Below, one piece after another: positions 6,567 through 43,792 of a stretch of DNA of 64,000 nucleotides. Numbering within the stretch: position 1 is the first letter of the stretch; the number at the start of each line of letters is the position of its first letter. The notes under the pieces were generated by a model, which was not told the origin of the DNA, made no database searches, and was given only the letters and a program-made list of their open reading frames with translations. The stretch is from an uncultured Schlesneria sp. (lineage in GTDB: Bacteria; Planctomycetota; Planctomycetia; Planctomycetales; Planctomycetaceae), in NCBI GenBank assembly GCA_903840265.1, contig CAIMFH010000177.1:62001-126000 (forward strand). Direction: 5' to 3'. The translations under genes and the position numbers were made by a program.

Positions 6567-9500
6567 ATGCGAAAGAGCGTTCCTTTCGACTGTCGCCGTG
6601 TTAGCCGGTGTCTGGTGATACTAGCCGGACTGCTGTTGTGTTCAGCTTCAACGGCGATGGCGCAGTTGCCCTCGACGCGCCTGTTTGCCCTCTTTCCCAC
6701 CGGCGGGCAAGCAGGGACCGCTGTTGATGTCACCATCACCAGTGGCCTGGAACTGGAAGAAATCCAGCGATTGTTGTTCAACCATCCGGGAATCAACGCG
6801 GCCCCAAAGATGCAGGATGTCGCTGGCAAACAGCAGCCAGTCGCCAACCAGTTCGGCGTCTCGATCTCGGGTGACGTTCCGCCCGGTAACTACGAAGTCC
6901 GCACCGTGGGCTTTTTCGGGATCAGTAATCCGCGCACATTCGTCGTCGGTTCACGAAAAGAAATTAGCGAAACCGAACCGAACAACACGCGCGAGCAGGC
7001 ATTCGCCGTCGAACTCAACCAGGTCATCAACGGCAAGATCAACGGCGCCACGGATCTCGACTGGATGAAGTTCACTGGCAAAGCGGGACAACGCATCATT
7101 GCCGACTGCGTGGCTCGACGATTGGACTCCCGCCTCGACGGTTATCTGGAACTGCACGACGCCAATGGCCGACGCTTGGCGGAAGCTCGCAACACGTTGG
7201 TCAGTCGAGATGCTTTGCTTGATGTCACCCTTCCGTCAGACGGGGAATATTTCCTGAAGGTCAGGGACTTCGTCAATGCTGGCGGAGAAGACTACTCCTA
7301 CCGGATGAACCTGACGACGGGACCATTCATCGACTTTGTGATGCCCCCCGCAGGGACACCTGGATCGAACGGTCAGTACACCCTGTATGGCCGCAACCTG
7401 CCGGGTGGACAACCGGCCAATATCGCCGTGCAGGGACGACCACTCGATAAGCTGAGCGTCTCCATCCCGCTGCCAGCTCAAGCCGATGCCTTGGATCCCA
7501 AGATCCTGATGGGCCCGTTCTCGGCAGGCATGGATGCGGTGCCGTTTTCCCTGGAATCGTCGAATGGACGATCCAACACGGTCATGATTTTCCTCAGTGG
7601 TGCGCCACCGGTTCTGGAAGTCGAACCGAACAACACCGGCGTTCAAGCCCAGAAGATTGTGGTTCCCGGCGAAGTGGCCGGTCAGTTCCAGGCTCGCGGT
7701 GACATTGATTGCTTCACCTTCGATGCCAAGGCGAAAGAGTCATTCTGGGTCGAAGTCGTCTCTCATCGTGCCGGTTCAGCAGCGGATCCGGTGGTCGTCA
7801 TCGATCAGGTCAAGACGAACGACAAGGGCGAAGAGATGCTGACCCGGATTAGCGCGCTGGACGACGATCCCACCAATCCCTTGCCCAACCTGTTTGATAC
7901 GCTCAATGACGATACGTCGGTAAAGTTCGTTGCGCCGGCTGACGGAACGTACCGAATCACGATGCGCAATCGTTACGGTTCAGCCGGCGATCCATCTCTC
8001 GTCTATCGATTGATCCTCCGTCCCGAAACACCCGACTTCCGCGTGGTGGCGGTCCCCAGTGCATTGACGCCCCCTGGACAGCGACAGGCTGCCCCGTCAG
8101 GAATTACGTTGCGTCGTGGCGACACCTTCCCGATCAGCGTGATGGCTCTGCGTCGCGATGGATTCACGGGACCGATCACTGTCTACGCAGAAGGACTACC
8201 CGCAGGCGTCACCTGTCCTGAGGTGACACTAGGAGCCACTCCCAGCAGTGGAATCATGACCTTCACGTCGACAGAAGATGCCCCGTTGTTTGCGGGCACG
8301 ATCAAGCTGGTGGCTAAGGCCCGCGTCGACGCACCGCCAGCCGTCGAAGCGCTGGTCGCGGCTCAATTGGTTGCGAAGACTTCGACCGATGCCCTCGCCG
8401 CAGCAGACAAAGCGTTGATGAAGCCAACCGAAGAGTTCGCGAAGGCCAACGAAGCCTTAATCGCCGCCAAGTCAGAATTGGCAGCGAAGCCAGAAGACGA
8501 GGGATTGAAAAAGAAAGTGGCCGATGCCGAAGCCAAAGTGACCGCCACGGCCGCGGCACACAAAGCGGTCGTCGATGCTCGCGCTGCCGCCGATCAGAAA
8601 TTGAAAGAATCACAAGTCGCAGTGCAGCAGGCCGAAGCCGCTCGCGTTGCCGCCGCGAAGGACGTTATCCATCCCGCTCGCTATGGCACGGTCTTATGGA
8701 ACGCTCCGCAAGCGAATCAACCGACCGAGACCCGAGTCGCACAATCGATCGAACTTTCGATCATCGAAGAGCCTTCGCCAATTCAACTGACAACCACAGT
8801 CCATCGCGTGGAAGCGAATCACAATCGACAGATTCTGGTTCCGGTGAAAGTCGTTCGCCGCAACGGATTCGACCAACCGGTAGCCCTCACATTTGTTGGC
8901 CAACCGCAGAACTCGCAAGTCGAAAACAAGCCGATTGCCAAAGAGAAGAACGAAGAGCTGCTACGAGTCTTTATTCCACCGAACGCTCCCGTCGGCACTT
9001 ACGTCATGTACTTGACCGGTCAGGGGCAGGTCTCTTACCGCAAGAACCCCGCCAAGGCGGATCGGCTGAAGACAGAATTCACCGCTGCCGAACAGGCCGC
9101 CAACGCCGCGGCAGAAGCAGTCAAGACCGCGAATACCGGCAAAGACGCCGCCGTGAAAAAGGCGACCGATGACGCCGCGAACTTGAAGAAGGCGACCGAA
9201 GCGAAACAGGCAGCCGACAAAGTTCTGGCTGATGCCCAGACGGCGGAGAAAGCGGCGGCCGAAGCATTGAAGAATGCCGGCGACGCCGATGCCAAAGCCG
9301 CAGCAGAAAAGAAGCTGACGGAAACTCAGGCCGTCGTCAAAACAGCGACCGATGGGCAAGCTGCCGCCGAAAAAACGCGAGTCGAAGCAGAGACACTCGC
9401 CAAACAAGCTGACGAACTGAAGGTCAAAGCCGAAGCCGATGCGAAGACCGCGGACGAGAAGAACAAGGCCGCGACAGCAGAGAAAGCCGCGGCAGATCAG

Positions 9501-9908
9501 CGGTTCAAAGCAGCAGACACCTACTCCAAAGCGGCCAACATCGCGTTCAACCCGCACACCACTCCGATCATTGTCACGGTCAAGACCGCACCTTACACGC
9601 TGTCGGCCAGTCCCGCCGATGGTGGAAACATCAAAGCCGGCGCGAAGATCGAAGTGAAGTGCGAAGTCAAACGCCAGAATGGATTCGCAGGCCCTGTGAC
9701 CCTGACGCTCCCGCTGCCTCCGAACGTCACCGGCCTGAAAGCCGAGCCAGTGACAATCCCTGCCGATCAATCCGCGGGAGCGCTGGTCATCGAAGCAGCC
9801 TCGGACGCGCAAGAAGCTCAGCTTGCCAATATGGTGATTCAAGCCGTCTCGCAATGGGAAGGTGAAGCGGCCGTCGACCAGCCGGTGACACTGAAAATTA
9901 CCAAATAA
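6567..9908 (+). CDS. exported PPC-domain protein with Ala/Lys-rich coiled-coil inserts
   Basis: 1113 residues with a signal peptide (LVILAGLLLCSASTAMA). Two bacterial pre-peptidase C-terminal (PPC) domains start at the ETEPNNT and EVEPNNT motifs (about 132-250 and 350-470). Beta-sandwich segments with the RRDGFTGPI / RRNGFDQPV / KRQNGFAGPV type of repeat occur at about 530, 770 and 1035. Two long Ala/Lys/Glu/Asp-rich helices (about 602-705 and 829-992) interrupt the beta domains and should be coiled coils. There is no catalytic domain. It follows the DUF1549/1553 gene on the same strand and precedes the WD40 gene, a common planctomycete grouping. It is probably a cell-surface or periplasmic scaffold (inference). 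Confidence 0.85.
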   Translation: MRKSVPFDCRRVSRCLVILAGLLLCSASTAMAQLPSTRLFALFPTGGQAGTAVDVTITSGLELEEIQRLLFNHPGINAAPKMQDVAGKQQPVANQFGVSISGDVPPGNYEVRTVGFFGISNPRTFVVGSRKEISETEPNNTREQAFAVELNQVINGKINGATDLDWMKFTGKAGQRIIADCVARRLDSRLDGYLELHDANGRRLAEARNTLVSRDALLDVTLPSDGEYFLKVRDFVNAGGEDYSYRMNLTTGPFIDFVMPPAGTPGSNGQYTLYGRNLPGGQPANIAVQGRPLDKLSVSIPLPAQADALDPKILMGPFSAGMDAVPFSLESSNGRSNTVMIFLSGAPPVLEVEPNNTGVQAQKIVVPGEVAGQFQARGDIDCFTFDAKAKESFWVEVVSHRAGSAADPVVVIDQVKTNDKGEEMLTRISALDDDPTNPLPNLFDTLNDDTSVKFVAPADGTYRITMRNRYGSAGDPSLVYRLILRPETPDFRVVAVPSALTPPGQRQAAPSGITLRRGDTFPISVMALRRDGFTGPITVYAEGLPAGVTCPEVTLGATPSSGIMTFTSTEDAPLFAGTIKLVAKARVDAPPAVEALVAAQLVAKTSTDALAAADKALMKPTEEFAKANEALIAAKSELAAKPEDEGLKKKVADAEAKVTATAAAHKAVVDARAAADQKLKESQVAVQQAEAARVAAAKDVIHPARYGTVLWNAPQANQPTETRVAQSIELSIIEEPSPIQLTTTVHRVEANHNRQILVPVKVVRRNGFDQPVALTFVGQPQNSQVENKPIAKEKNEELLRVFIPPNAPVGTYVMYLTGQGQVSYRKNPAKADRLKTEFTAAEQAANAAAEAVKTANTGKDAAVKKATDDAANLKKATEAKQAADKVLADAQTAEKAAAEALKNAGDADAKAAAEKKLTETQAVVKTATDGQAAAEKTRVEAETLAKQADELKVKAEADAKTADEKNKAATAEKAAADQRFKAADTYSKAANIAFNPHTTPIIVTVKTAPYTLSASPADGGNIKAGAKIEVKCEVKRQNGFAGPVTLTLPLPPNVTGLKAEPVTIPADQSAGALVIEAASDAQEAQLANMVIQAVSQWEGEAAVDQPVTLKITK

Positions 9909-33181: not shown

Positions 33182-34294
33182 TTAACTGGCCCCGATATCA
33201 TCCAGCAGTTTGAGGATATGTCGTTCGATTTCGGCTTTGCAACTTTCGTATTCCCGACGCGAACCGCCGTAAGGATCGCTCACATCCTGACGCTCTGCCG
33301 ACAGCATCCGCACGCGGCATGCCAACTCGGGAAACTCATTCAGGATGACCTGCTGATGCCCGCGAGTCATCGTGACCACATGGTCCGCTTGAATCAACAA
33401 ACGCTCGGTCACCGGCTGACTTTCGTGCGCCCGCAGATCGATTCCTTCGCCCTCCAAAACCGACACCGCTTCTGCAGAAGCTTGCGCACCGACACCCGCA
33501 GAAAGACCTGCTGACAACACGGCATAGCCGCGGTCCATCAGTTCGTCATCGGGGCATTTTAGTTTCTCGGCCAGACGACGACGAAATAAAGCTTCCGCCA
33601 TGGGGCTGCGGCAAGTATTTCCCGTACAGATGAAGAGATATATTTCGCTGACAAGGCGATCAATATTGCGAGCCGAAATCATCCCCTGATGCACCAGATC
33701 CCATTGTTCGCCTTGAAAACGAACTGTCGTCGTCGGCTCGCCATATCGGCAGGGCCCATCGTCAATCACCAATGCGACTTGCTCACCAAACATTTCAGCG
33801 GCATCGGTCGCATTACGGGCCAACTTCAAATTTTTCCCGCGGTCCGAGGTGACGACCAACGGAGCAGGGCTTAATTGTTGAACATGTAAGATCGCTTCGT
33901 GGGCAGGCACGCGCAAGGCCACAGCTGATCGATCACCCAATAGCAACTGACGAGTGGCCTGCGGGAGCGACTCGAACAACCCGTTAAGTGCCGAAGTCTC
34001 AAACTCGATCGTCAGCGGACCGGGCCATGCTCGACGGGCCAGTTTGTCGGCCGCAGTCGGCATGTTCGGAACATAGTCGTGGGCTTCTTGTGGCGACTTC
34101 AGCGCTAAAACAGTCTCACCCGAGGAAACGGACCGAAGTCGCTCGACCCCTTCCTCGCTGAGTGCCCCAGCAGCCGCGATATAACCTGTCTCTGTCGGAA
34201 ACGCGACCAATTGCCCCTCAGCCAACAGTTGACACGCGCGATGGATCACATCGCGCGGGTCATCAGCGCTGCGGATCTCAATTATCTGCGTCAT
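33182..34294 (-). CDS. Sua5/YrdC-like domain fused to low-molecular-weight protein phosphatase
   Basis: 370 residues from the ATG at 34294. Residues 1-210 resemble Sua5/YrdC threonylcarbamoyl-AMP synthase (LVAFPTETGY, WPGPLTIEF, VALRVPAHEAIL, LVIDDGPCRYGEPTTTVRF). However, the KxR motif after PTET is replaced by SSGETVLALKS, and the SxN motif by TSDRGKN, so this half is probably not catalytically normal. Residues about 215-370 are a complete LMW phosphatase: P-loop CTGNTCRSPMAE and the acid loop DPYGG. A Thr in the P-loop (CTGNT) matches the arginine phosphatase YwlE rather than typical tyrosine phosphatases. It heads a run with rpiB and the gcv genes. Confidence 0.85.
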   Translation of the reverse strand: MTQIIEIRSADDPRDVIHRACQLLAEGQLVAFPTETGYIAAAGALSEEGVERLRSVSSGETVLALKSPQEAHDYVPNMPTAADKLARRAWPGPLTIEFETSALNGLFESLPQATRQLLLGDRSAVALRVPAHEAILHVQQLSPAPLVVTSDRGKNLKLARNATDAAEMFGEQVALVIDDGPCRYGEPTTTVRFQGEQWDLVHQGMISARNIDRLVSEIYLFICTGNTCRSPMAEALFRRRLAEKLKCPDDELMDRGYAVLSAGLSAGVGAQASAEAVSVLEGEGIDLRAHESQPVTERLLIQADHVVTMTRGHQQVILNEFPELACRVRMLSAERQDVSDPYGGSRREYESCKAEIERHILKLLDDIGAS

Positions 34295-34715
34295 TAGGGC
34301 ATCCGAGGAAGATCGAGGTGCAACAGGACCGAGCCGACCGGCACCACCACGATTGTTCCGCCCTGCATCAACAGGCCGGAATTTGTATCCCGGAAGTGTA
34401 CCCCTGCCAGCACGGGGGTTCAAGGAGCGGCCCTCCACACTCAAACGCCAACTTATGCAGCCAACGCAAGTTACAACAACGCGGAATGGAGCCGAGGCGA
34501 CTAATTAGCCACGCGAAATTCCGTGATTGCACAGGCCGCCACAAAGCGAATCCGGGTCGTGGCACTCGATTGAAAACGGAGCGTTTTCGCCGTAGCTTCC
34601 CCGTAATATCCTTATTCCTGGTCAGAACTTCCGGTGATCTACCGCAAAACAAATCGAAGATGATCGATCGATCTGAAACTCTTGCAACTGCGCGATGCAA
34701 TCAATGGAGTGGTCG
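34295..34715. other. divergent region upstream of the MoxR/VWA cluster
   Basis: About 420 bases between the minus-strand fusion gene and the plus-strand cluster, so both promoters should be here. No gene, repeat or riboswitch could be recognised. Confidence 0.5.
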
Positions 34716-35069
34716 ATGTCCGAAATCGAGGAAGTCGTTGGGACGCTGGATCGACTGAATTCCGAACTTCAGGATCTTCTCGTCCGGGGGCTGAGGATCT
34801 GCGGTTCTGAACATCTGCGCCCTCTCCGAGGCATCCACACCGAACTCGATCGTATTGGCGCGACTCACCTGGCCGGGCGACTCACGAAACTGATCTCTGC
34901 CATCGAGTCGGATAGCCGAGAAGCGGCGGTCGATTTGCTGCGGACTCAGGCGTCGTTGCGAGTCTTCGAACGAGTCCTCACCTTGAAAGTCGCCGCGCTG
35001 AAACTCGAATCCATGATGGCCGTGATATCTCACGTTGGTGACGAACCGATTGACGAGGGTGCCGTATGA
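34716..35069 (+). CDS. uncharacterised helical protein, first gene of the MoxR/DUF5682/VWA cluster
   Basis: 117 residues from the ATG at 34716 (GGAG 8 nt upstream; the ATG at 34695 is less well placed). It is all helical in appearance: LDRLNSELQDLLVRGLRICG, then HLAGRLTKLISAIESDSREA and LRVFERVLTLKVAALKLE. By eye, its pattern of Leu and Arg aligns with the first 110 residues of the next gene's product, so the two may be paralogous helical domains. It overlaps that gene by 4 bases (ATGA). No family or enzymatic motif was recognised. Confidence 0.7.
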   Translation: MSEIEEVVGTLDRLNSELQDLLVRGLRICGSEHLRPLRGIHTELDRIGATHLAGRLTKLISAIESDSREAAVDLLRTQASLRVFERVLTLKVAALKLESMMAVISHVGDEPIDEGAV

Positions 35070-36169
35070 ATCTCGCCGCGGCCGACCGAACACTGCTAAA
35101 ACGTCAACTGACCGACCTATCGCGGGCCGTTGAAGAGATGTTGCTGACCGGACTGACCGCCGCCAGCGAATCGACGCGACAAACGCTCGATGTCACATTT
35201 CGAGAAGCCTCGCGACTGCGGCTGTTGCGGCTCGCGTCAACCTTACGCGGCGCGAACGAAGAGATTGGCCGGTACGTCACGCAGCAAAACGAGTTCTCTG
35301 CCAAGCGCTTGTCCTTCTTTTTAAACCGAGCCTGGATGCTGGGGCAGGGGTTGCTGCAGGCGATCCAGAACAATGACGAAGCGGCTCTCTCGCGACTGCT
35401 GTGGACGCAACCAACTCGTCCTGTGGAACGACTGGAAGTCGTGACGCTTGGTGTCGGAAAGAAAGTCGCCAAGGGGTCGTTCTGTGCCTTTGAGTTTCGG
35501 CTGCGGGAAATTTCTGGAGCGAATCCATCACCACTGGTCTGGTCCTGCATCTTCCCACTCAAGGCCGACAACGAAATTCCGCCAGAAGGGTTTCTGCAGT
35601 TGCCTCAAAAGCAGAAGTTTAAGACATCCCTATTTCTGGAACCGAAAGTCCTGACGATCACGAATGCGATGTTCGCAGATGACAGTCACGGCTGCGGACG
35701 AATCACGCTGACGGATACCAGCACTGTGACGGCAGGAGCAGCCTTCGCTGACTGGTCGCGATTCACCACTTGGTCGCCGGAACCACTCGTGAAACGACTG
35801 CAGTCGCATGAGCCCGGCCCGCTGGATCTGGAAATCGAGCTTCAAGATGAAGTGGTGTTAGCGGATTGGACCATCCAAGCACCGCCGGAAGGGGAGCGCG
35901 ATGGGCAGGTGATCTATCCCATCATAAGTTCTCACCTGCAATTCGACGCCGTGGCACCATCAGGCAGCGACGGCACCGCGTTGCGAAAGCAACTGGACGA
36001 TCTGGTGAAGGCGAAAACTCGTCCGCCTTTGTTTGGATTGTTGCACTTTGATCGCGCCCGATTCATCCTGCAGCCTCTGGCACTTCTGACAGAATCGGGG
36101 CCAAATCTGATTACCATGTCGTCCGAGTCAATCAACAGTAAAGCTCTGCTGAAGACGCTGAAGTTCTGA
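35066..36169 (+). CDS. uncharacterised two-domain protein of the MoxR/DUF5682/VWA cluster
   Basis: 367 residues. The N-terminal third is helical (LTDLSRAVEEMLLTGLTAAS, LRLLRLASTLRGANEEIG, FFLNRAWMLGQGLLQAI) and resembles the preceding small protein. The rest is beta-rich (PLVWSCIFPLKADNEIPPEG, LDLEIELQDEVVLADWTIQAP) and ends near PPLFGLLHFDRARFILQPLALL. There is no signal peptide, so it is cytoplasmic. It has no CxC...CxH, so it is not a SWIM zinc-finger protein, the partner I associate with similar clusters in other phyla. Translation is coupled to the upstream gene by an ATGA overlap. Confidence 0.72.
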   Translation: MNLAAADRTLLKRQLTDLSRAVEEMLLTGLTAASESTRQTLDVTFREASRLRLLRLASTLRGANEEIGRYVTQQNEFSAKRLSFFLNRAWMLGQGLLQAIQNNDEAALSRLLWTQPTRPVERLEVVTLGVGKKVAKGSFCAFEFRLREISGANPSPLVWSCIFPLKADNEIPPEGFLQLPQKQKFKTSLFLEPKVLTITNAMFADDSHGCGRITLTDTSTVTAGAAFADWSRFTTWSPEPLVKRLQSHEPGPLDLEIELQDEVVLADWTIQAPPEGERDGQVIYPIISSHLQFDAVAPSGSDGTALRKQLDDLVKAKTRPPLFGLLHFDRARFILQPLALLTESGPNLITMSSESINSKALLKTLKF

Positions 36170-36205
36170 CGTTCAACGTGAGTCTCCCATCGCAGAAAGC
36201 AGCCC

Positions 36206-37378
36206 ATGCCGAAGAAAGCCACCAAGGAAGAAGTTGCCGAACCGGTCGCATCGGTTGCTCTTTCGGATCAGTTGCGAGCTCCTGCAGAAATACGATACGC
36301 CGACCAGCTGGAAGCCTTGCGCCAGAACGATCAGGACGCCAAGCCCCGAGCCTGGCGACTGTCGCCGCGATCGGTACTGGCCTACATCGTCGGCGGCAGC
36401 ACTCTGAAGGCTGAGATCAACGGCAAGAAAGTCGATGTTCCGATCACTCGCAAATTCTTCGGTGAAGATGGCATCGTCGAGCGATCGATCGTCACTCTCG
36501 CCTCCGAACGCGCCCTCTTGCTGATTGGTGAACCGGGGACGGGCAAGAGTTGGCTGTCCGAACATCTGGCCGCCGCCATCAGTGGCACATCCACCTTGAC
36601 GATTCAAGGAACGGCCGGGACGACCGAAGAGCAGATCAAGTATTCCTGGAACATCGCTCGGATTATCGCAGAAGGGCCCAAGCCCGAAAATATGATTCCT
36701 TCACCCACGATGATCGCCATGCGAAGTGGGTCTCTGTTGCGATTTGAAGAAATCACCCGTTGCGTCCCTGATGTGCAGGATTCATTGGTGTCGATCCTGT
36801 CCGACAAGGCGATCGCCATTCCTGAACTGCCCGACGCGAATATGCTGTGGGCAAAGCCGGGTTTCAACGTCATCGCCACCGCCAACTCGCGCGATCAAGG
36901 CGTCAACGAACTGTCGGCAGCCCTGAAACGACGCTTCAACTACATCTATATTCCTGTCATCGCCGATCAGAAGACGGAAGTGGAAATTGTCCGGCAACGG
37001 TCGGCGGAATTAATTGCGCAATACCAGCTTCCCGTGAAGATCAATCCCCCCATCCTACAGATGCTGGCGACGGTATTTCGCGAGATTCGCCAAGGCAAGA
37101 CCGGCGACGGCGTCAGCATCAAGCAGCCAAGTACGACACTCTCCACGGCCGAAGCCATTGGGGTCGCACTGGATTCCGCACTGCATGCGAAGTTCTTCGG
37201 CAGCGGAGCAGTCACTCCCAGCGATGTCGCTCGCAATCTGATCGGCTCGATTGTTAAAGAGGACCAGGCGGATCTTGCTGTTCTGAAGGAATACAACACG
37301 CTTGTCGCCCGTAAGCGAGGAACATCGGACCCCAGTTGGAAAGAGTTCCACGACACGCTGGCCGGGCAATTGGGATAG
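36206..37378 (+). CDS. MoxR-family AAA+ ATPase
   Basis: 390 residues. Walker A is GEPGTGKS (108-115). A Walker B-like strand, LLRFEEITR, lies at about 177-185. Sensor 1 is in NVIATANSRDQG (221-232), and an arginine finger may be in LKRRFNY (240-246). The motif order and the helical C-terminus fit MoxR/RavA-type AAA+ chaperones, which act with a VWA protein on target complexes; a VWA gene is two genes downstream. The first 60 residues are an extension without a recognisable domain. Confidence 0.9.
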   Translation: MPKKATKEEVAEPVASVALSDQLRAPAEIRYADQLEALRQNDQDAKPRAWRLSPRSVLAYIVGGSTLKAEINGKKVDVPITRKFFGEDGIVERSIVTLASERALLLIGEPGTGKSWLSEHLAAAISGTSTLTIQGTAGTTEEQIKYSWNIARIIAEGPKPENMIPSPTMIAMRSGSLLRFEEITRCVPDVQDSLVSILSDKAIAIPELPDANMLWAKPGFNVIATANSRDQGVNELSAALKRRFNYIYIPVIADQKTEVEIVRQRSAELIAQYQLPVKINPPILQMLATVFREIRQGKTGDGVSIKQPSTTLSTAEAIGVALDSALHAKFFGSGAVTPSDVARNLIGSIVKEDQADLAVLKEYNTLVARKRGTSDPSWKEFHDTLAGQLG

Positions 37379-37412
37379 CACATAACTCAATACTGATTTG
37401 CAAACGACGGAA

Positions 37413-39890
37413 ATGCTGCGGGAGTTTCCCTTGCCTGCTGTCACCGAAAATCATCTCGATGCCGATGTGATCGCCGCGCGCGTCGATGCGGTGCTCAACG
37501 ATGACCTGTACTGGTTTCCAGTGCGGCATCACTCAGCAGCGGTGGCTCGTCATCTGGAAGCGGTGATTGCCGAGCGGCATCCCAAGGTCATCTTCATTGA
37601 AGGCCCCGCGCAAGCACAAGAGTTGATTCCGTTCATCGTCGATGGGGCCACGCGACCTCCGATCGCGATCTATTCTTCCTATCGCGACGACGACAACACG
37701 CTTGGCCTGGCAGGAATCGCCAGTGCCGCCGAGAACATTCCGCCTCGCTTCGCCTGCTGGTATCCGATGTTGGCCTACTCGCCCGAGTTCGTGGCGATGC
37801 ACGCTGCAGCGAAGATCAAGGCTGATGTCGTCTTCATTGACCTGCCTCACTTCGCCCAGATCAAACCGCATCCGGGTTCGGCCCCTGCCATCGATCAAGA
37901 TGAAGACAAAGAGCAGCCGGCCCCTTATGCCCCCGTTGGTTCTGAGCATCTGTTCGCTGAAAGCAGCTTCTATCAGTCACTCGCCCAGGCGGCTGGCTAT
38001 AAATCGTGGAATGAAACGTGGGACACGCTATTCGAAAACAACGAACTCGCCGCTGATACCGAGCACTTTCGTCGCGAACTGGCTTCGTTCTGTGCCGCCG
38101 TCCGAGCCACCCTGCCACCAGGTTCGCTCGAAGAAGACGGAACCATTGAACGTGAGCGACACTTTATGCAGACGATTCGCGCAACGATGGCGGATCGAAA
38201 GCTGAAGCCGAAAGACGTCATGGTCGTCTGCGGCGGTCTCCATTTGTTCCTCGATCGCAACGATCTGGAGGCCCCACCTCAACCGCCACCAGGGACGGTC
38301 TATACAACCATCGTTCCCTATTCGTTCTTTCGTATCTCCGAACTCTCGGGATACGGAGCCGGCAATCGAGCTCCGCAGTTCTATCAGACGGGATGGGATC
38401 TGACGCGTTCGGGTCGCGGTGAAGATCTGCTGTCCGAATACGTTGTTTCCGTCTTGAAGCAAGCCAGGCAAGAGGGGTATGCCGCTTCTTCGGCAGACGC
38501 GATCTCGATTACGCAGCACGCTCGCATGCTGGCGGGGCTGCGTGGACGAGCCAATCCCGTGCTAGACGATATTCAAGATGCGATCATCACTTGCTGCTGC
38601 AAAGGAAATCCGGCCGAGGAAGGGCTGCCGCTGCGCCGGGCCATCGACGCGATCAACATCGGGACGAAGATTGGCAAGGTCACCGACAAGATTGGCCGTC
38701 TGCCGATCGTCAACGATTTCTATGCACAACTCAGCGATCTCGAATTGGGAGACCTCTTCGATCACGAGAAGCGAATTAACCTGGATCTCGACAAGCGCCA
38801 ACCGCTGCAAGAGCGGCGCAGTGTCTTTCTGCATCGACTGCGGTTCCTGGAAGTACCCCTCGCAGAAATGCGCGAGCAGGCACAACCCGATGTCGTCTCG
38901 GGACTGCTCTTTCGGGAACGCTGGGCGCTGCGCTGGTCACCTAAGGTCGAACCGGTCCTGGTCGAACAAAACCTGTACGGCGACACATTGGAAACGGCAG
39001 TCCTCTCCAACCTGCAGGAACAACTGGCACTCGCCGGAATGCATGCGGCCGCCGTCTGCAAACACCTGCGTCAATCAATCGATATGGACCTGCCGAATCT
39101 GGTGACAGAAGTACAAACAGTCTGCGGGACAGCGGTCGACGAAGACCCGCAGTTCGTGTCACTCAGCGAAGGCCTGCGACATCTAACGATCATCGAGCGA
39201 TATGCGGTTTATCGAAACCTGCGACGTGTTGAACTGGCAGACTTAATTGAGCGTTGTTTTGATCGAGCTTGTTTCGCAATGCCTGACAGTGCGTGTGCGC
39301 CGGACAATCAGCAGGCGGGCGTGGTACAGAGCCTGCAATCGCTCGCCGAAATCCTGCTGCGTTACGAGCAAGGCGAAGCAGGGCTGGCGCTGGATCGCGA
39401 TGTGTTTGTCGAACATGTCCGCACCTCCGCCGAACTTTCGACGGTGCCGTTTCTGCAGGGCGCTTTTCTGGGGATGCTGGCGGAACTGCGAGAACTCTCT
39501 CCGCAGGAATTGGCTGACCGGGTTTCTGCCTATTCCAAGACCAGCCCCGATCAAATGGTGTTCGCCGGCGATTTTCTGGATGGGATTCTGGCGGTCTCCC
39601 GCACATCAGTGATGCTGGGGGCGGAACCATTGGTGGCAGCGATCGATCAGTTGTTGCGGGCTGCCGAGTGGGATGTCTTCCTGACGATGCTCCCTCGCCT
39701 CCGCGCCGCCTTTGAACGACTTCACGATCGGCAGATCCATTCTCTGGCCAATGTTGTCGCGCGGCGGTATGGACTGTCTCGTGATGAAGGAGATGAGTTG
39801 ACCGAGCTAAAAACATCTGTCGACGCCGCGACGTTGATTGCGGACATTGATCGACAAGTTGCAGAACTCATGACGAAGTGGAGTCTGTAG
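37413..39890 (+). CDS. DUF5682 family protein
   Basis: About 825 residues from the ATG at 37413; a TTG at 37398 is the alternative. Near the N-terminus is the family marker WFPVRHHSAAVARHLEAVI, then PKVIFIEGPAQAQELIPF, and later VMVVCGGLHLFLD (about 274) and QFYQTGWDLTRSGRGEDLL. The alternation of RHHS, EGP and GLH segments resembles the TraB/ChaN-like superfamily, but I cannot assign an active site. The C-terminal half is helical. The family is nearly always encoded with a MoxR ATPase and a VWA protein, as here. It lies 34 bases after the MoxR gene and ends 2 bases before the VWA gene. Confidence 0.85.
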   Translation: MLREFPLPAVTENHLDADVIAARVDAVLNDDLYWFPVRHHSAAVARHLEAVIAERHPKVIFIEGPAQAQELIPFIVDGATRPPIAIYSSYRDDDNTLGLAGIASAAENIPPRFACWYPMLAYSPEFVAMHAAAKIKADVVFIDLPHFAQIKPHPGSAPAIDQDEDKEQPAPYAPVGSEHLFAESSFYQSLAQAAGYKSWNETWDTLFENNELAADTEHFRRELASFCAAVRATLPPGSLEEDGTIERERHFMQTIRATMADRKLKPKDVMVVCGGLHLFLDRNDLEAPPQPPPGTVYTTIVPYSFFRISELSGYGAGNRAPQFYQTGWDLTRSGRGEDLLSEYVVSVLKQARQEGYAASSADAISITQHARMLAGLRGRANPVLDDIQDAIITCCCKGNPAEEGLPLRRAIDAINIGTKIGKVTDKIGRLPIVNDFYAQLSDLELGDLFDHEKRINLDLDKRQPLQERRSVFLHRLRFLEVPLAEMREQAQPDVVSGLLFRERWALRWSPKVEPVLVEQNLYGDTLETAVLSNLQEQLALAGMHAAAVCKHLRQSIDMDLPNLVTEVQTVCGTAVDEDPQFVSLSEGLRHLTIIERYAVYRNLRRVELADLIERCFDRACFAMPDSACAPDNQQAGVVQSLQSLAEILLRYEQGEAGLALDRDVFVEHVRTSAELSTVPFLQGAFLGMLAELRELSPQELADRVSAYSKTSPDQMVFAGDFLDGILAVSRTSVMLGAEPLVAAIDQLLRAAEWDVFLTMLPRLRAAFERLHDRQIHSLANVVARRYGLSRDEGDELTELKTSVDAATLIADIDRQVAELMTKWSL

Positions 39891-39892
39891 TC

Positions 39893-41056
39893 ATGTCCAC
39901 TGACGAACATCTGCTGGCACGCTGGCGACTGGTTCTGGGTCAGGACGCCGAAAGTCATCAGATCACCTGTGGCCGCGATGCGGAATGCACTCGCGTCGAA
40001 GAGCTGGTCGGCTTTTTATTTGAAGAGGGAGGTGCGGGGCAGGGGGGCGGCGATCACGGCGGCGGATCCCATCGCGGGCAGAGTAAGGATCGGACAGGCG
40101 GCATCGGGCCAGGTCATGCCATGAATGTACCTGAATGGGTGGACGCTGTCTCTGAATTGTTTCCTCGGCAAGCTCGCGAAGTCATGGAGCGAGAACTCGT
40201 CCAGCGACGCGGCATTGCCGAATTGCTGGATGAACCCAAGCTGCTGGAGCGGATCGAGCCCAATCTCGAGCTGGTCAAGACGCTGCTGACTCACAAAGAC
40301 CTGCTCAACGAGAAGACGCGCATCTTAGCTCGCAAGATCATTCAACAAGTCGTCGAAGAACTGAAGAAGAAGATGCAAGTCCAGGTTGAGCAGGCTATTA
40401 CCGGGGCCATTCGCCGCGACAAGCATTCGCCCCGTCGAGTCTTTCGCAATCTGGATCTCAAGACGACTTTGCGGCGCAATCTGCAACACTACGACAGTGA
40501 TTCGGGAAAGCTGCTGGTCGATCGCATGTTCTTCTACGCGGCCGAACGCAACAAGCGTCCGTGGCACATCATCATCGCAGTCGACCAATCGGGATCGATG
40601 CTCGATTCCGCCATCTTCTCCGCGGTCATGGCTTCGATCTTCGCTGAACTCCCCGCCGTCAAGACATCGCTATTCCTGTTCGATACCGAGATCGCGGATC
40701 TGACAGATCAAGTCGGCCAACCGGTCGATGTCTTGCTGTCGATCCAGCTGGGTGGCGGTACGGACATCACGAAGGCACTGCAATACGGGGCTCAACTTGT
40801 CCGCGAACCGGTGCGAACGATCGTCGTACTGATCACCGATTTCTTCGAAGGTCGCGACGAAAAGGATCTGATCCAGCAGGTGCGCATCATGGCCGATTCC
40901 GGAGTCCGCATGATCGGCCTGGGAGCTCTCGGCTACGACGCTCGCCCTGCGTTCAACAAAACGACCGCCGCCAAATGCCGCAAAGCAGGAATGGATATTC
41001 TTTCATGTACCCCCGAAAAGCTGGCGGAGTGCATGGGACAGATTATTCGCGGATGA
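39893..41056 (+). CDS. VWA domain protein (CoxE-like)
   Basis: 387 residues from the ATG at 39893 (GGAG upstream). The N-terminal part has a Gly/His-rich loop (GAGQGGGDHGGGSHRG) and a long charged helix. The C-terminal von Willebrand A domain has a complete metal site: IIIAVDQSGSMLDS (DxSxS, about 227), GGGTDITKAL and VLITDFFEG. Such proteins pair with MoxR-type ATPases (compare RavA-ViaA). It is the last gene of the cluster; 30 bases separate it from the convergent gene at 41087. Confidence 0.9.
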   Translation: MSTDEHLLARWRLVLGQDAESHQITCGRDAECTRVEELVGFLFEEGGAGQGGGDHGGGSHRGQSKDRTGGIGPGHAMNVPEWVDAVSELFPRQAREVMERELVQRRGIAELLDEPKLLERIEPNLELVKTLLTHKDLLNEKTRILARKIIQQVVEELKKKMQVQVEQAITGAIRRDKHSPRRVFRNLDLKTTLRRNLQHYDSDSGKLLVDRMFFYAAERNKRPWHIIIAVDQSGSMLDSAIFSAVMASIFAELPAVKTSLFLFDTEIADLTDQVGQPVDVLLSIQLGGGTDITKALQYGAQLVREPVRTIVVLITDFFEGRDEKDLIQQVRIMADSGVRMIGLGALGYDARPAFNKTTAAKCRKAGMDILSCTPEKLAECMGQIIRG

Positions 41057-41086: not shown

Positions 41087-43792
41087 TCAGGGCAACAGCG
41101 TGTCCTTGTCTTTGGCATGGACCCGTTCGGGCAGGAAGCCATCCAGATAGCGCGCCGACTTGGAAATACGGATGCCTCCAAAGCGAGCGGGACACGAAAT
41201 TCGGTCATACGAGGTACCGAATTTCCAAGGGGATCGCGATTGCAGTGGGGCCTTCAGCGTTGAACCGCTCGCTTTGCCACCGTCAACATAAAGCGTCAGT
41301 TCGTCCATCTGCTTGACGACGGCCAGATGATGCCACTTGCCATCGTTGATCGACCCGCCTCCGCCGGCACCTCCTTCGCCTCCTCCCACAGCAACACTCA
41401 AATTGGGCTCGGTATTGTCGAGATTCACAATAAAGCTCGACTCTTCGCTCGAGTGCTTCTTCGAAAGCAGGGTCCCCTTCGGTGAGGTCGTCGAGACCCA
41501 GAACTCGATTGTGAAATTATCAGTCGGCGACCAGCGATCGCTACCGGGAATGGCGACCCCCGCAGCGTCACCCTTACTGACCGCATAAGAAGTGCCAAAC
41601 AGCTTGATCAACCGCTGATCGACTTTCAGTTCAACATCCTTCTTTTGCAGTTGCGTCGCCGTGGCGAGCGCCTGCTGCCACGCCTGATCGGCACGTTTCA
41701 GAGTCGACACCTTGACCAGGTCTTTTTCTCGAATGCCCGCTTGCAGCCAGTCATCCCCTAACTGTAACCAGTCGGGCGCGGTTTGCGGCACTGTGATTTC
41801 ACGTTGAGCGATCGAAGCCCAGACTTTGTCGTCGGCCTTCGCCAACAACTTCAGACCTTTCTCCCAATCGTGCTTGTAAAAGCAGACGAAGCGACCCCAG
41901 GCCAAATTTGCCGTCGCATCGTCAGCTTGCGCTTGCAACTTGTCACGAGCATTCTTCACAGCGTCATACGCTTCTTTATGGGCTGTCATTTGCTTGATCA
42001 GAAATGTGGTGTCTTCCTTCAATGATTTATAGACGGGTTTCTTTACCATCTCAGACGCCGCCTTCAGGATGTTAACGGCAGCCACATACTCTTCGGCGGC
42101 AGCAGCCTCGTCGGAAAGTTCAACGAACTTCACAATCAAGGCCTCGGCCTGAGACGGTTCCAGTGCCAGACCGGCCGAACCAACCGCCGTCGCCGCACGT
42201 TGTTTCCAATCGATGGCGTTCACTTCGAACTTGTCAGACAACTCCTTAACAGCTCGAAGAGCCAGATCCAAGTCGCCACCTTGGCCTGCAAATCCGATGG
42301 CTTCTGCCAGGTAGCCAAACTGGTCGTCACCCGTTTGGGCATCAGCTTGCTCAATGAGCGTCCGCGCGAGTGCCGCCTTCGCTTCAGGCTTCTTGGCTTT
42401 CGCAATCTCGGCTCTAAACTGTTCCCGAACGGCCTTTCGCCCTCTGTCTTGGGACATCGCGTCCGGGGCTGGCTTTTTACCTTCAGCCGCGTCCGACTCC
42501 GCAGCCACCTGCTCGCCCGGTTCAGCCACATCGACAACGTTCTTCGCCACCGCTGCCACCGGCACCATGTGCGGACAGATTTCCTCGTCGCCATTGAAGA
42601 ACTGCAACCCCCGGATGATTAAGATCCGACTGGCTCCGGAAGTCAGCGTCAACGACCATTTCGTCGCTTCGGTCGAATCAAAAGTGACGTTCTCGTCGAT
42701 GGACTTCACAGGCTTCTCGATCACCAGCGTGCGAGCTTGATCGTTTGTCTCCAGTCGCATCGCGGTGACTTCATGATGGATGCCGCTATGCTGCGAATGG
42801 ATTGCGACGCCCGTCAAAGTCACCGGAAATGGGAAGGCGATTTCCAGGGTTGCCTTCCCATCGGGAAGCGGCTTCGAATGCCACATCGTGCCCGGGTCAT
42901 AGGTAATGCCCGGGCCTGAGCTAGGCTTGATCTCTTCTCGAACAATATTGACGACCTTGCTGAAAACGTCCTCGCCACCGGTCGTCGTGACTTGCGGATA
43001 GAAATCCGGCTGCCCAGGCAATGTCATGGGACCGAGCGGCACAATTCGTTTGGAGAGCGAATAGCCAAACGGCACATCGCGGATCGGATTGAATGTCGTT
43101 TTCGCAAAGACGCGGTCATTCAGCGCCAAGCCTCGGCGATCCTCGGGAATCAGGGCACCTGGCGTACTGCTTGGCTCAAACCCCTGGCAATGGTGGGCGG
43201 GATTGTAAGACATGATCGAGGCATTCGCCTTCATGTCGTAGCCGTAGACATCGACATGCGCCAGTCCAAACGCATGCCCCAACTCATGCTGAAGGGTTGT
43301 CTGAAAATGAGTGTTATGCGTCAATTCCCAGGACGCGATGTACATCATCCCACCACCGGTGTTGATGCCCCCGTTAATGCTGCGACCGCCACCCTCCGGA
43401 AAGTTGTCTTTCGAGTTCATCAACAGAATGCAGAAGACGTACGGACAGTTGAATCGGTTCAGCCGCAGATGCGTGAGCAATTCTGAGACGATATCAGGAG
43501 CCCCTCGTTCCGGTGGCCTTCGATAAAAATCGAGTGGCTTTTGCCCAGAGACGATTTGAACCGTCGGCTCGGCCAACTCAAAGGTATCTCCATCGAGCAT
43601 CACTCGGTAGCGGTCTTGAGCCAATTGAAGATGCTTCAAAAACAGCTTTTGTTCGTCGGCAGTCGGGCTCTGTTCTCCTAGCGGAACAAATGCGATAGGG
43701 AGGACTTCGATTCGATCGGGAAGCGAATAGTCTGACCCGGTTGCGAAATGAGTCGTCAGTACAAACACCAGTAGCGCAGCGCGACGAAGCAC
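41087..43792 (-). CDS. exported matrixin-type metalloprotease with C-terminal LamG domain
   Basis: 901 residues from a GTG (AAGGGGA upstream), with a short signal peptide (ALLVFVLTTHFATG). The protease part has the zinc site HELGHAFGLAHVD (HExxHxxGxxH, about 174-186) and a downstream SIMSYNP Met-turn, as in matrixins. A beta domain follows (about 260-425), then a long helical region of Ala/Lys/Glu (about 450-710) and a LamG/concanavalin-like domain (about 745-880). It is predicted to be secreted and active. The gene is convergent with the VWA gene. Confidence 0.88.
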   Translation of the reverse strand: MLRRAALLVFVLTTHFATGSDYSLPDRIEVLPIAFVPLGEQSPTADEQKLFLKHLQLAQDRYRVMLDGDTFELAEPTVQIVSGQKPLDFYRRPPERGAPDIVSELLTHLRLNRFNCPYVFCILLMNSKDNFPEGGGRSINGGINTGGGMMYIASWELTHNTHFQTTLQHELGHAFGLAHVDVYGYDMKANASIMSYNPAHHCQGFEPSSTPGALIPEDRRGLALNDRVFAKTTFNPIRDVPFGYSLSKRIVPLGPMTLPGQPDFYPQVTTTGGEDVFSKVVNIVREEIKPSSGPGITYDPGTMWHSKPLPDGKATLEIAFPFPVTLTGVAIHSQHSGIHHEVTAMRLETNDQARTLVIEKPVKSIDENVTFDSTEATKWSLTLTSGASRILIIRGLQFFNGDEEICPHMVPVAAVAKNVVDVAEPGEQVAAESDAAEGKKPAPDAMSQDRGRKAVREQFRAEIAKAKKPEAKAALARTLIEQADAQTGDDQFGYLAEAIGFAGQGGDLDLALRAVKELSDKFEVNAIDWKQRAATAVGSAGLALEPSQAEALIVKFVELSDEAAAAEEYVAAVNILKAASEMVKKPVYKSLKEDTTFLIKQMTAHKEAYDAVKNARDKLQAQADDATANLAWGRFVCFYKHDWEKGLKLLAKADDKVWASIAQREITVPQTAPDWLQLGDDWLQAGIREKDLVKVSTLKRADQAWQQALATATQLQKKDVELKVDQRLIKLFGTSYAVSKGDAAGVAIPGSDRWSPTDNFTIEFWVSTTSPKGTLLSKKHSSEESSFIVNLDNTEPNLSVAVGGGEGGAGGGGSINDGKWHHLAVVKQMDELTLYVDGGKASGSTLKAPLQSRSPWKFGTSYDRISCPARFGGIRISKSARYLDGFLPERVHAKDKDTLLP

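Follow-up and report, generated by a model that had tools for sequence, protein, structure and literature searches.

A probable planctomycete variant of the YehLMPQ (MoxR-DUF5682-VWA-SWIM) system, with a split SWIM protein and a zinc finger carried on separate adaptors

Background

Pairs of MoxR AAA+ ATPases and VWA proteins act as remodelling machines, with RavA-ViaA and NorQ-NorD as described cases (PMC3893208, PMC13036017), and YehL is one of the seven MoxR subfamilies (PMC3893208). Four MoxR-vWA ternary conflict systems (VMAP, iSTAND, FtsH, and beta-propeller) have been reported in planctomycetes, in a paper whose text has no occurrence of SWIM, WGR, or BRCT (PMC7159879). The E. coli K-12 cluster has the order yehF-(yehH)-yehI-yehK-yehL-yehM-yehP-yehQ and contains WGR/DUF4132 genes, a MoxR, a DUF5682 protein, a VWA protein, and a SWIM zinc-finger protein; YehF is the WGR protein. 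Matches to yehM were found in 5284 of 5426 E. coli genomes (97%), nearly always single and chromosomal, so YehLMPQ-type systems are widespread. Clusters with the order SWIM-DUF5691-MoxR-DUF5682-VWA, parts of it, or a version with a HEAT protein occur in Deinococcus, Hymenobacter, Rhizobium, and Methylosinus replicons and in many planctomycetes. Here, we describe a five-gene locus, P1-P2-MoxR-DUF5682-VWA, at positions 34716-41056 of a 64,000-nucleotide stretch (the window) from an uncultured Schlesneria sp. of the Planctomycetota.

We consider it reasonably probable that this locus is a planctomycete variant of YehLMPQ in which the SWIM protein was split into a body (P2) and a C-terminal domain (P1), with its finger moved to adaptor proteins that we call BPS. 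MoxR and VWA would form the remodelling unit and DUF5682, P2, and P1 the platform, with BPS bringing the target. This reading rests on the gene content and its conserved order, on the grouping of the MoxRs in a single clade, on the profile matches of three fragments, on the conservation of zinc ligands, and on the co-occurrence of BPS. It is further supported by the canonical clusters, which contain MoxR, DUF5682, VWA, and SWIM proteins plus a helical partner.

Gene content of the locus

An earlier prediction made from this DNA (the original prediction) had described five closely packed plus-strand genes, and all open reading frames and their spacing were recovered: P1 and P2 overlap by 4 bases, followed by gaps of 36 (P2-MoxR), 34 (MoxR-DUF5682), and 2 bases (DUF5682-VWA). 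These values assume starts at 34716 for P1, 35066 for P2, 36206 for MoxR, and ATG codons at 37413 for DUF5682 and 39893 for VWA; the P1 start is backed by the M-S/P-E-I N-termini of relatives. Promoter and terminator scans gave chance-level results only. The features are as follows.

34716..35069, plus strand: P1, 117 aa, helical; predicted equivalent of the helical domain at the C-terminus of YehQ-family SWIM proteins (hhalign, neighbour conservation)
35066..36169, plus strand: P2, 367 aa; predicted counterpart of the SWIM-protein body, the part after the zinc fingers (hhalign, HMMER)
36206..37378, plus strand: YehL-type MoxR AAA+ ATPase (Pfam AAA_5, phmmer, tree)
36527..36550, plus strand: Walker A GEPGTGKS in MoxR (sequence)
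36740..36760, plus strand: Walker-B position RFEEITR in MoxR, Asp to Glu, a family hallmark (alignment)
37413..39890, plus strand: DUF5682 protein (YehM family), about 825 aa (Pfam, phmmer)
37521..38243, plus strand: DUF5682 N-terminal domain with RHH...IEGP...SPE...DLP...RE..M...VCGGLH motifs, TraB/EreA-like fold suspected (weak, convergent matches)
38370..38601, plus strand: DUF5682 segment resembling the helical lid of MoxR (hhalign, Pfam AAA_lid_2)
39893..41056, plus strand: CoxE-like VWA protein with complete MIDAS (Pfam VWA_CoxE, motifs)

P1, P2, and the BPS proteins

At a threshold of E = 1, neither P1 nor P2 had a match in Pfam, NCBIfam, or PADLOC, and searches with P2 as a single protein (phylum sample, plasmids, PDB) were too weak for identification; deeper profiles succeeded. 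Profiles of 18 P2 proteins, 20 P1 proteins, and 49 BPS modules were run against canonical SWIM proteins divided into fingers and body. P2 aligned with the YehQ-family body at an hhalign score of 52.1 (probability 85.5%, 318 collinear columns; reversed 13.6) and with the DUF5691-type SWIM body at 35.5, against at most 20.1 for unrelated families and 21.5 for one further SWIM-type family. P1 matched the YehQ-family C-terminus at 41.5 (probability 77.9%, 65 columns; reversed 22.7), with unrelated families at 9.9-26.6, HEAT11 being the highest; overall, reversed and unrelated control profiles mostly scored 10-22. In a small ORF set, the YehQ-family HMM recovered P2 homologues with values of 1e-7 to 5e-5, and one-way HMMER searches with SWIM profiles also recovered several P2, P1, and BPS proteins. 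On the profile evidence, P2 corresponds to the body of a YehQ-family SWIM protein and P1 to its C-terminal helical domain. A relationship between P1 and the P2 N-terminus as paralogues, suggested by eye, gave a marginal profile score (21-23), and the claim was dropped. Separately, P2 is in two frames in 2 relatives (L162 [G487] 7146-8318 and L167 [G484] 8425-9564) in which the remaining operon is apparently intact; either pseudogenes or sequencing errors would account for this.

In most relatives, the cluster extends further upstream than at the window locus, with one to five BPS genes directly ahead of P1; these are absent from the window locus. L043, L045, and L046 have one or two such proteins of 844-957 aa, each built of a BRCT-like N-terminus, two pentapeptide-repeat blocks, and a conserved C-terminal module, CCTQNLxxCGGLxGxLCKH. 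The BRCT N-terminus exceeded the Pfam cut-off in 3 of the 5 BPS proteins from these loci and was weak or missed in both L043 copies. The ligands of the module (C, C, C, H, spaced Cx7Cx7CxH) were invariant in all 49 sequences, and the module aligned with SWIM fingers at an hhalign score of 50.0 (probability 94.2%), placing CKH on CKH; the reversed profile scored 12.9, and unrelated or reversed controls reached at most 21.4, the highest being a reversed one.

The part ahead of the module varies. Genomes of family f94 carry up to five BPS genes in tandem ahead of P1 with N-termini unlike one another, consisting of pentapeptides plus a Lys/Ala/Pro-rich tail, of the module alone, or of the long form. 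Among the L160 paralogues, the final 150 residues are 48-66% identical, and the remainder is 24 to 650 residues long, while L169 has an additional BPS with two BRCT domains and without pentapeptides. The BPS gene is divergent in L173, and in L101 a BPS-P1 pair reaches the contig end, fitting L044, which begins just before P2. In the window genome, a single BPS is encoded away from the operon on another contig (G000:C82, ~71249-73780, minus strand), adjoining a tad-pilus-like cluster; a close relative, G638 (which contains L042), likewise has its single BPS away from the locus, in the same neighbourhood as in the window genome.

Conservation and co-occurrence

The original prediction had proposed a planctomycete variant, and the order check in relatives bears this out: P1-P2-MoxR-DUF5682-VWA was found in about 19 other planctomycete loci spanning many families and two classes, which argues that the arrangement is not due to chance. 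The order holds wherever a relative's contig is long enough, except in L169, where P1 and P2 are separated by an additional SWIM-module gene, and in L044, with a 950-base P2-MoxR spacer. P2 was identified in 2 of the 294 genomes of the phylum sample and, by profile search, in 18 of 378 genomes of the class, giving about 21 genomes in two classes; DUF5682 was present in 31 of the 294 sampled planctomycete genomes. A pattern scan of 84,980 species returned five P2 loci only, from which a restriction to Planctomycetota does not follow, since the 18 of 378 found by the class profile search mark the scan as insensitive.

A SWIM-bearing gene was present in 20 of the about 21 P2 genomes. In the class sample of 378, P2 and BPS occurred together in 17 genomes, P2 only in 1, BPS only in 3, and neither in 357 (Fisher p about 1.6e-25, relatedness uncorrected); in the sole P2-only genome, the contig is 3 kb long and stops within P2. 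In the phylum sample, both were carried by the same 2 of 294 genomes, and all other BPS matches there were pentapeptide repeats apart from a weak one in G191. Within the window genus, P2 and BPS were both found in the same 3 of 14 genomes, unlinked in two of them. This co-occurrence ties BPS to the operon.

MoxR, DUF5682, and VWA proteins

As originally predicted, the locus encodes a MoxR with Walker A and sensor motifs, a DUF5682 protein of about 825 residues, and a VWA protein with a complete metal site, with Pfam and motifs in agreement. The MoxR matched Pfam AAA_5 (5.9e-35) and E. coli YehL (phmmer, 4e-81), and its sensor-1 is IATAN. At the Walker-B position, R179, E181, and E182 (RFEE) are invariant across 13 aligned YehL-type MoxRs, including that of E. 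coli; in alignment A5, the P2-type rows have the Walker A GEPGTGKS, compared with GxPGTAK in other types. The MoxRs of P2-type loci formed one clade with support of 98/98 in a tree of 49 MoxRs, which points to a single origin of the arrangement. Just outside this clade, on a long branch, is the MoxR of L179 (G306:C129, 1260-8637), a sister lineage with a SWIM-like fragment, VWA, MoxR, and a DUF5682-like gene in that order.

The DUF5682 protein matched Pfam PF18934 at 3.3e-113 and, by phmmer, E. coli YehM; DUF5682 had no mention in the open-access literature searched. Several sub-threshold signals agree across methods (family alignment A7), suggesting that it may combine a TraB/EreA-like N-terminal domain (RHH, IEGP, RExxM, GGxH) with a MoxR-lid-like segment. 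Two other DUF5682 family members gave sub-threshold Pfam matches to TraB (0.048) and erythromycin esterase (0.096), and DUF5682 scored 36.6 in hhalign against TraB/GumN (reversed 14.3); no TraB family member turned up when relatives were searched. Ere-type proteins took Foldseek ranks 5-6 for the N-terminus, not significantly, and because the AlphaFold model of this region has low confidence (51), the Ere/TraB structural matches are leads only. Against the MoxR lid, DUF5682 scored 41.2 in hhalign over 64 columns, and against Pfam AAA_lid_2 it reached E = 0.047, below the family cut-off.

The VWA protein matched Pfam VWA_CoxE (PF05762) at 2.4e-46, and its MIDAS residues were located in DQSGSM (40583), GGTD (40754), and ITDFF (40832). 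In L064, L067, and L058, a single frame of ~1130-1270 aa spans DUF5682 and VWA as an apparent fusion, and beside this frame L064 and L067 encode a protein of 1690-1937 aa together with a divergent SWIM protein. Near a gcvT-like gene, the window genome also has a lone N-terminal stretch of 110 aa left over from a second DUF5682 gene (G000:C85:64469-64735; L002, L011:18185-18517). It is matched by YehM and unmatched by the window copy, and it probably comes from a decayed cluster of another type.

Both flanks are on the minus strand and outside the operon: a Sua5/YrdC-low-molecular-weight phosphatase fusion upstream (33182-34444) and, downstream (41087-43792), a putative metalloprotease that has the motif HELGHAFGLAH and a laminin G domain.

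Discussion

The original suggestion of a MoxR/VWA machine is upheld, such pairs being remodelling machines (RavA-ViaA, NorQ-NorD), and under the split-SWIM reading, the MoxR hexamer and the VWA protein would constitute an ATP-driven remodelling unit supplying force, for which DUF5682, P2, and P1 would be the platform. A BPS adaptor would bind the target through its N-terminal modules and dock on P1/P2 through its SWIM module, and the machine would then pull or rearrange the bound target. The original prediction also proposed that the variant has its own target recognition; this is plausible, although it would then be a property of the BPS adaptors and not of P1/P2. The BRCT domains, pentapeptide repeats, and basic tails of BPS, together with WGR/DUF4132 in the E. 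coli-type clusters, suggest that the target may be associated with DNA or the nucleoid. More tentatively, and as a possibility that we would not yet put at even chances, the locus may represent one AAA+ machine with interchangeable SWIM-tagged adaptors, in which the split freed a docking tag; joined to a variety of DNA-related recognition modules and amplified into tandem sets of as many as five per locus, this tag would allow one motor to serve many targets. In the open-access papers searched, no split system with tagged adaptors seems to have been described before. By separating the platform (P1/P2) from a movable tag (SWIM), the variant reveals the modules joined to the tag, which point to DNA-associated targets, and it offers a direct interaction test for the whole family.

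Several points weigh against this reading. The BPS module does not have the CxCxnCxH pattern of SWIM fingers, its ligand spacing being different, and the Pfam SWIM family (PF04434) gave no match to the BPS finger. The profile matches of P1 (78%) and P2 (85.5%) are good without being near-certain. The P2 model, a helical bundle at residues ~5-112 followed by a beta-rich half, has low confidence (pLDDT 56); most of its top Foldseek matches were OB-fold proteins that bind single-strand DNA (best E 1.2e-3, TM 0.16), which makes an OB-fold-like P2 a lead only. BPS proteins of 825-990 aa occur without a detected P2 in L174 (G399), L175 (G471), and L176 (G567), and the partnership in the window genome rests on co-occurrence because BPS is unlinked there. 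Both the docking and the target are steps that we infer, and for no member of YehLMPQ-type systems did we find a known function.

The original prediction regarded P1 and P2 as two non-SWIM proteins, which would make them new target-recognition subunits replacing the SWIM protein. Their lack of any Pfam, NCBIfam, or PADLOC match and the absence of a SWIM gene beside them in the window are consistent with this, but both match defined regions of SWIM proteins, namely body and C-terminal domain without the finger, with clean reversed and unrelated controls, and nearly all P2 genomes have a SWIM-bearing gene; the finger is on BPS, upstream in most relatives and in trans here. We therefore regard replacement as very unlikely. 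Hardly more credible is the idea that the unlinked BPS of the window genome no longer works with the operon and that the machine acts without a SWIM module: its position on another contig beside a tad-pilus-like cluster would fit, yet exactly the three P2 genomes of the genus keep BPS, which in two of them is unlinked yet intact and syntenic. The unlinked BPS presumably still serves the operon.

Two further explanations concern the biological role. The original prediction offered a stress or conflict role as conjecture, and an anti-phage or inter-cell conflict system akin to the MoxR-vWA ternary systems, themselves proposed as conflict systems (PMC7159879), would agree with the patchy distribution (18/378 genomes in the class, 3/14 in the genus) and with tandem adaptor arrays of conserved C-terminus and differing N-termini. 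However, PADLOC gave only weak generic ATPase matches and no catalogued defence family, no nuclease or pore effector was recognised in the operon, the window neighbours are metabolic genes, and the near-universal yehM of E. coli looks like housekeeping. DUF5682 was not found on viral contigs, where MoxR matches were short generic AAA+ stretches. Phage defence is thus not supported, and a conflict role, kept in view by the distribution and the arrays, seems unlikely. Less likely still is a machine that, like NorQ/NorD or CoxD/CoxE, inserts a cofactor or metal to mature a single enzyme; the metal-insertion pairs known to us have no counterpart of the BRCT, pentapeptide, and SWIM partners, and no recurrent enzyme operon adjoined the loci examined, even though the window VWA is CoxE-like and NorQD remodels a linker for metal insertion (PMC13036017).

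Among the known systems, RavA-ViaA and NorQ-NorD share with the window locus a MoxR ring and a VWA partner expected to remodel a client; we know of no DUF5682, SWIM, or BPS partner for either, and their MoxRs belong to other subfamilies than that of the window (PMC3893208). The MoxR-vWA ternary conflict systems, like the window locus, combine a MoxR-VWA pair with extra components. None of the five proteins of the locus had a Pfam match above cut-off for VMAP, inactive STAND, FtsH, or beta-propeller, and the bpMoxR profile scored 22.6, below its cut-off of 27.

The closest relatives are the DUF5682 clusters, and the earlier association of these with a SWIM protein holds for E. coli yehLMPQ and for Deinococcus and Hymenobacter plasmids. 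The SWIM-DUF5691-MoxR-DUF5682-VWA clusters have the ATPase, DUF5682, and VWA families and the upstream SWIM position in common with the window type. In contrast to it, they have an intact one-piece SWIM protein (DUF5691-fused in Hymenobacter), a DUF5691 or HEAT protein, and a separate MoxR clade; no helical partner (DUF5691, DUF4132, or HEAT) was found in 34716-41056 or in the P2-type loci of relatives. Two side cases concern the SWIM gene elsewhere: L052 (G024), unlike its congeners L053 and L054, is without SWIM and DUF5691 upstream of MoxR and is another DUF5682 cluster without a linked SWIM, and on an Iodobacter fluviatilis plasmid (L103, 7001-9057), the annotation gives a YehQ-type SWIM protein adjoining restriction-modification genes as a pair of overlapping ORFs; this may reflect a frameshift or a split parallel to the one described here. 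E. coli YehL-YehM-YehP-YehQ, like the window type, unites a YehL-subfamily MoxR, DUF5682, VWA, and SWIM-protein material in one cluster, with YehF/YehI WGR/DUF4132 proteins upstream that have no counterpart gene in the window type. YehQ is one protein with two CxCxnCxH fingers, whereas the window type has at least three genes, with a Cx7Cx7CxH finger on BRCT/pentapeptide proteins. MoxR, DUF5682, and VWA are all present at the window locus and a one-piece SWIM protein is not; because the finger is on a separate, unlinked BPS, with body and C-terminus as P2 and P1, we file the locus as a variant rather than as a plain member of YehLMPQ.

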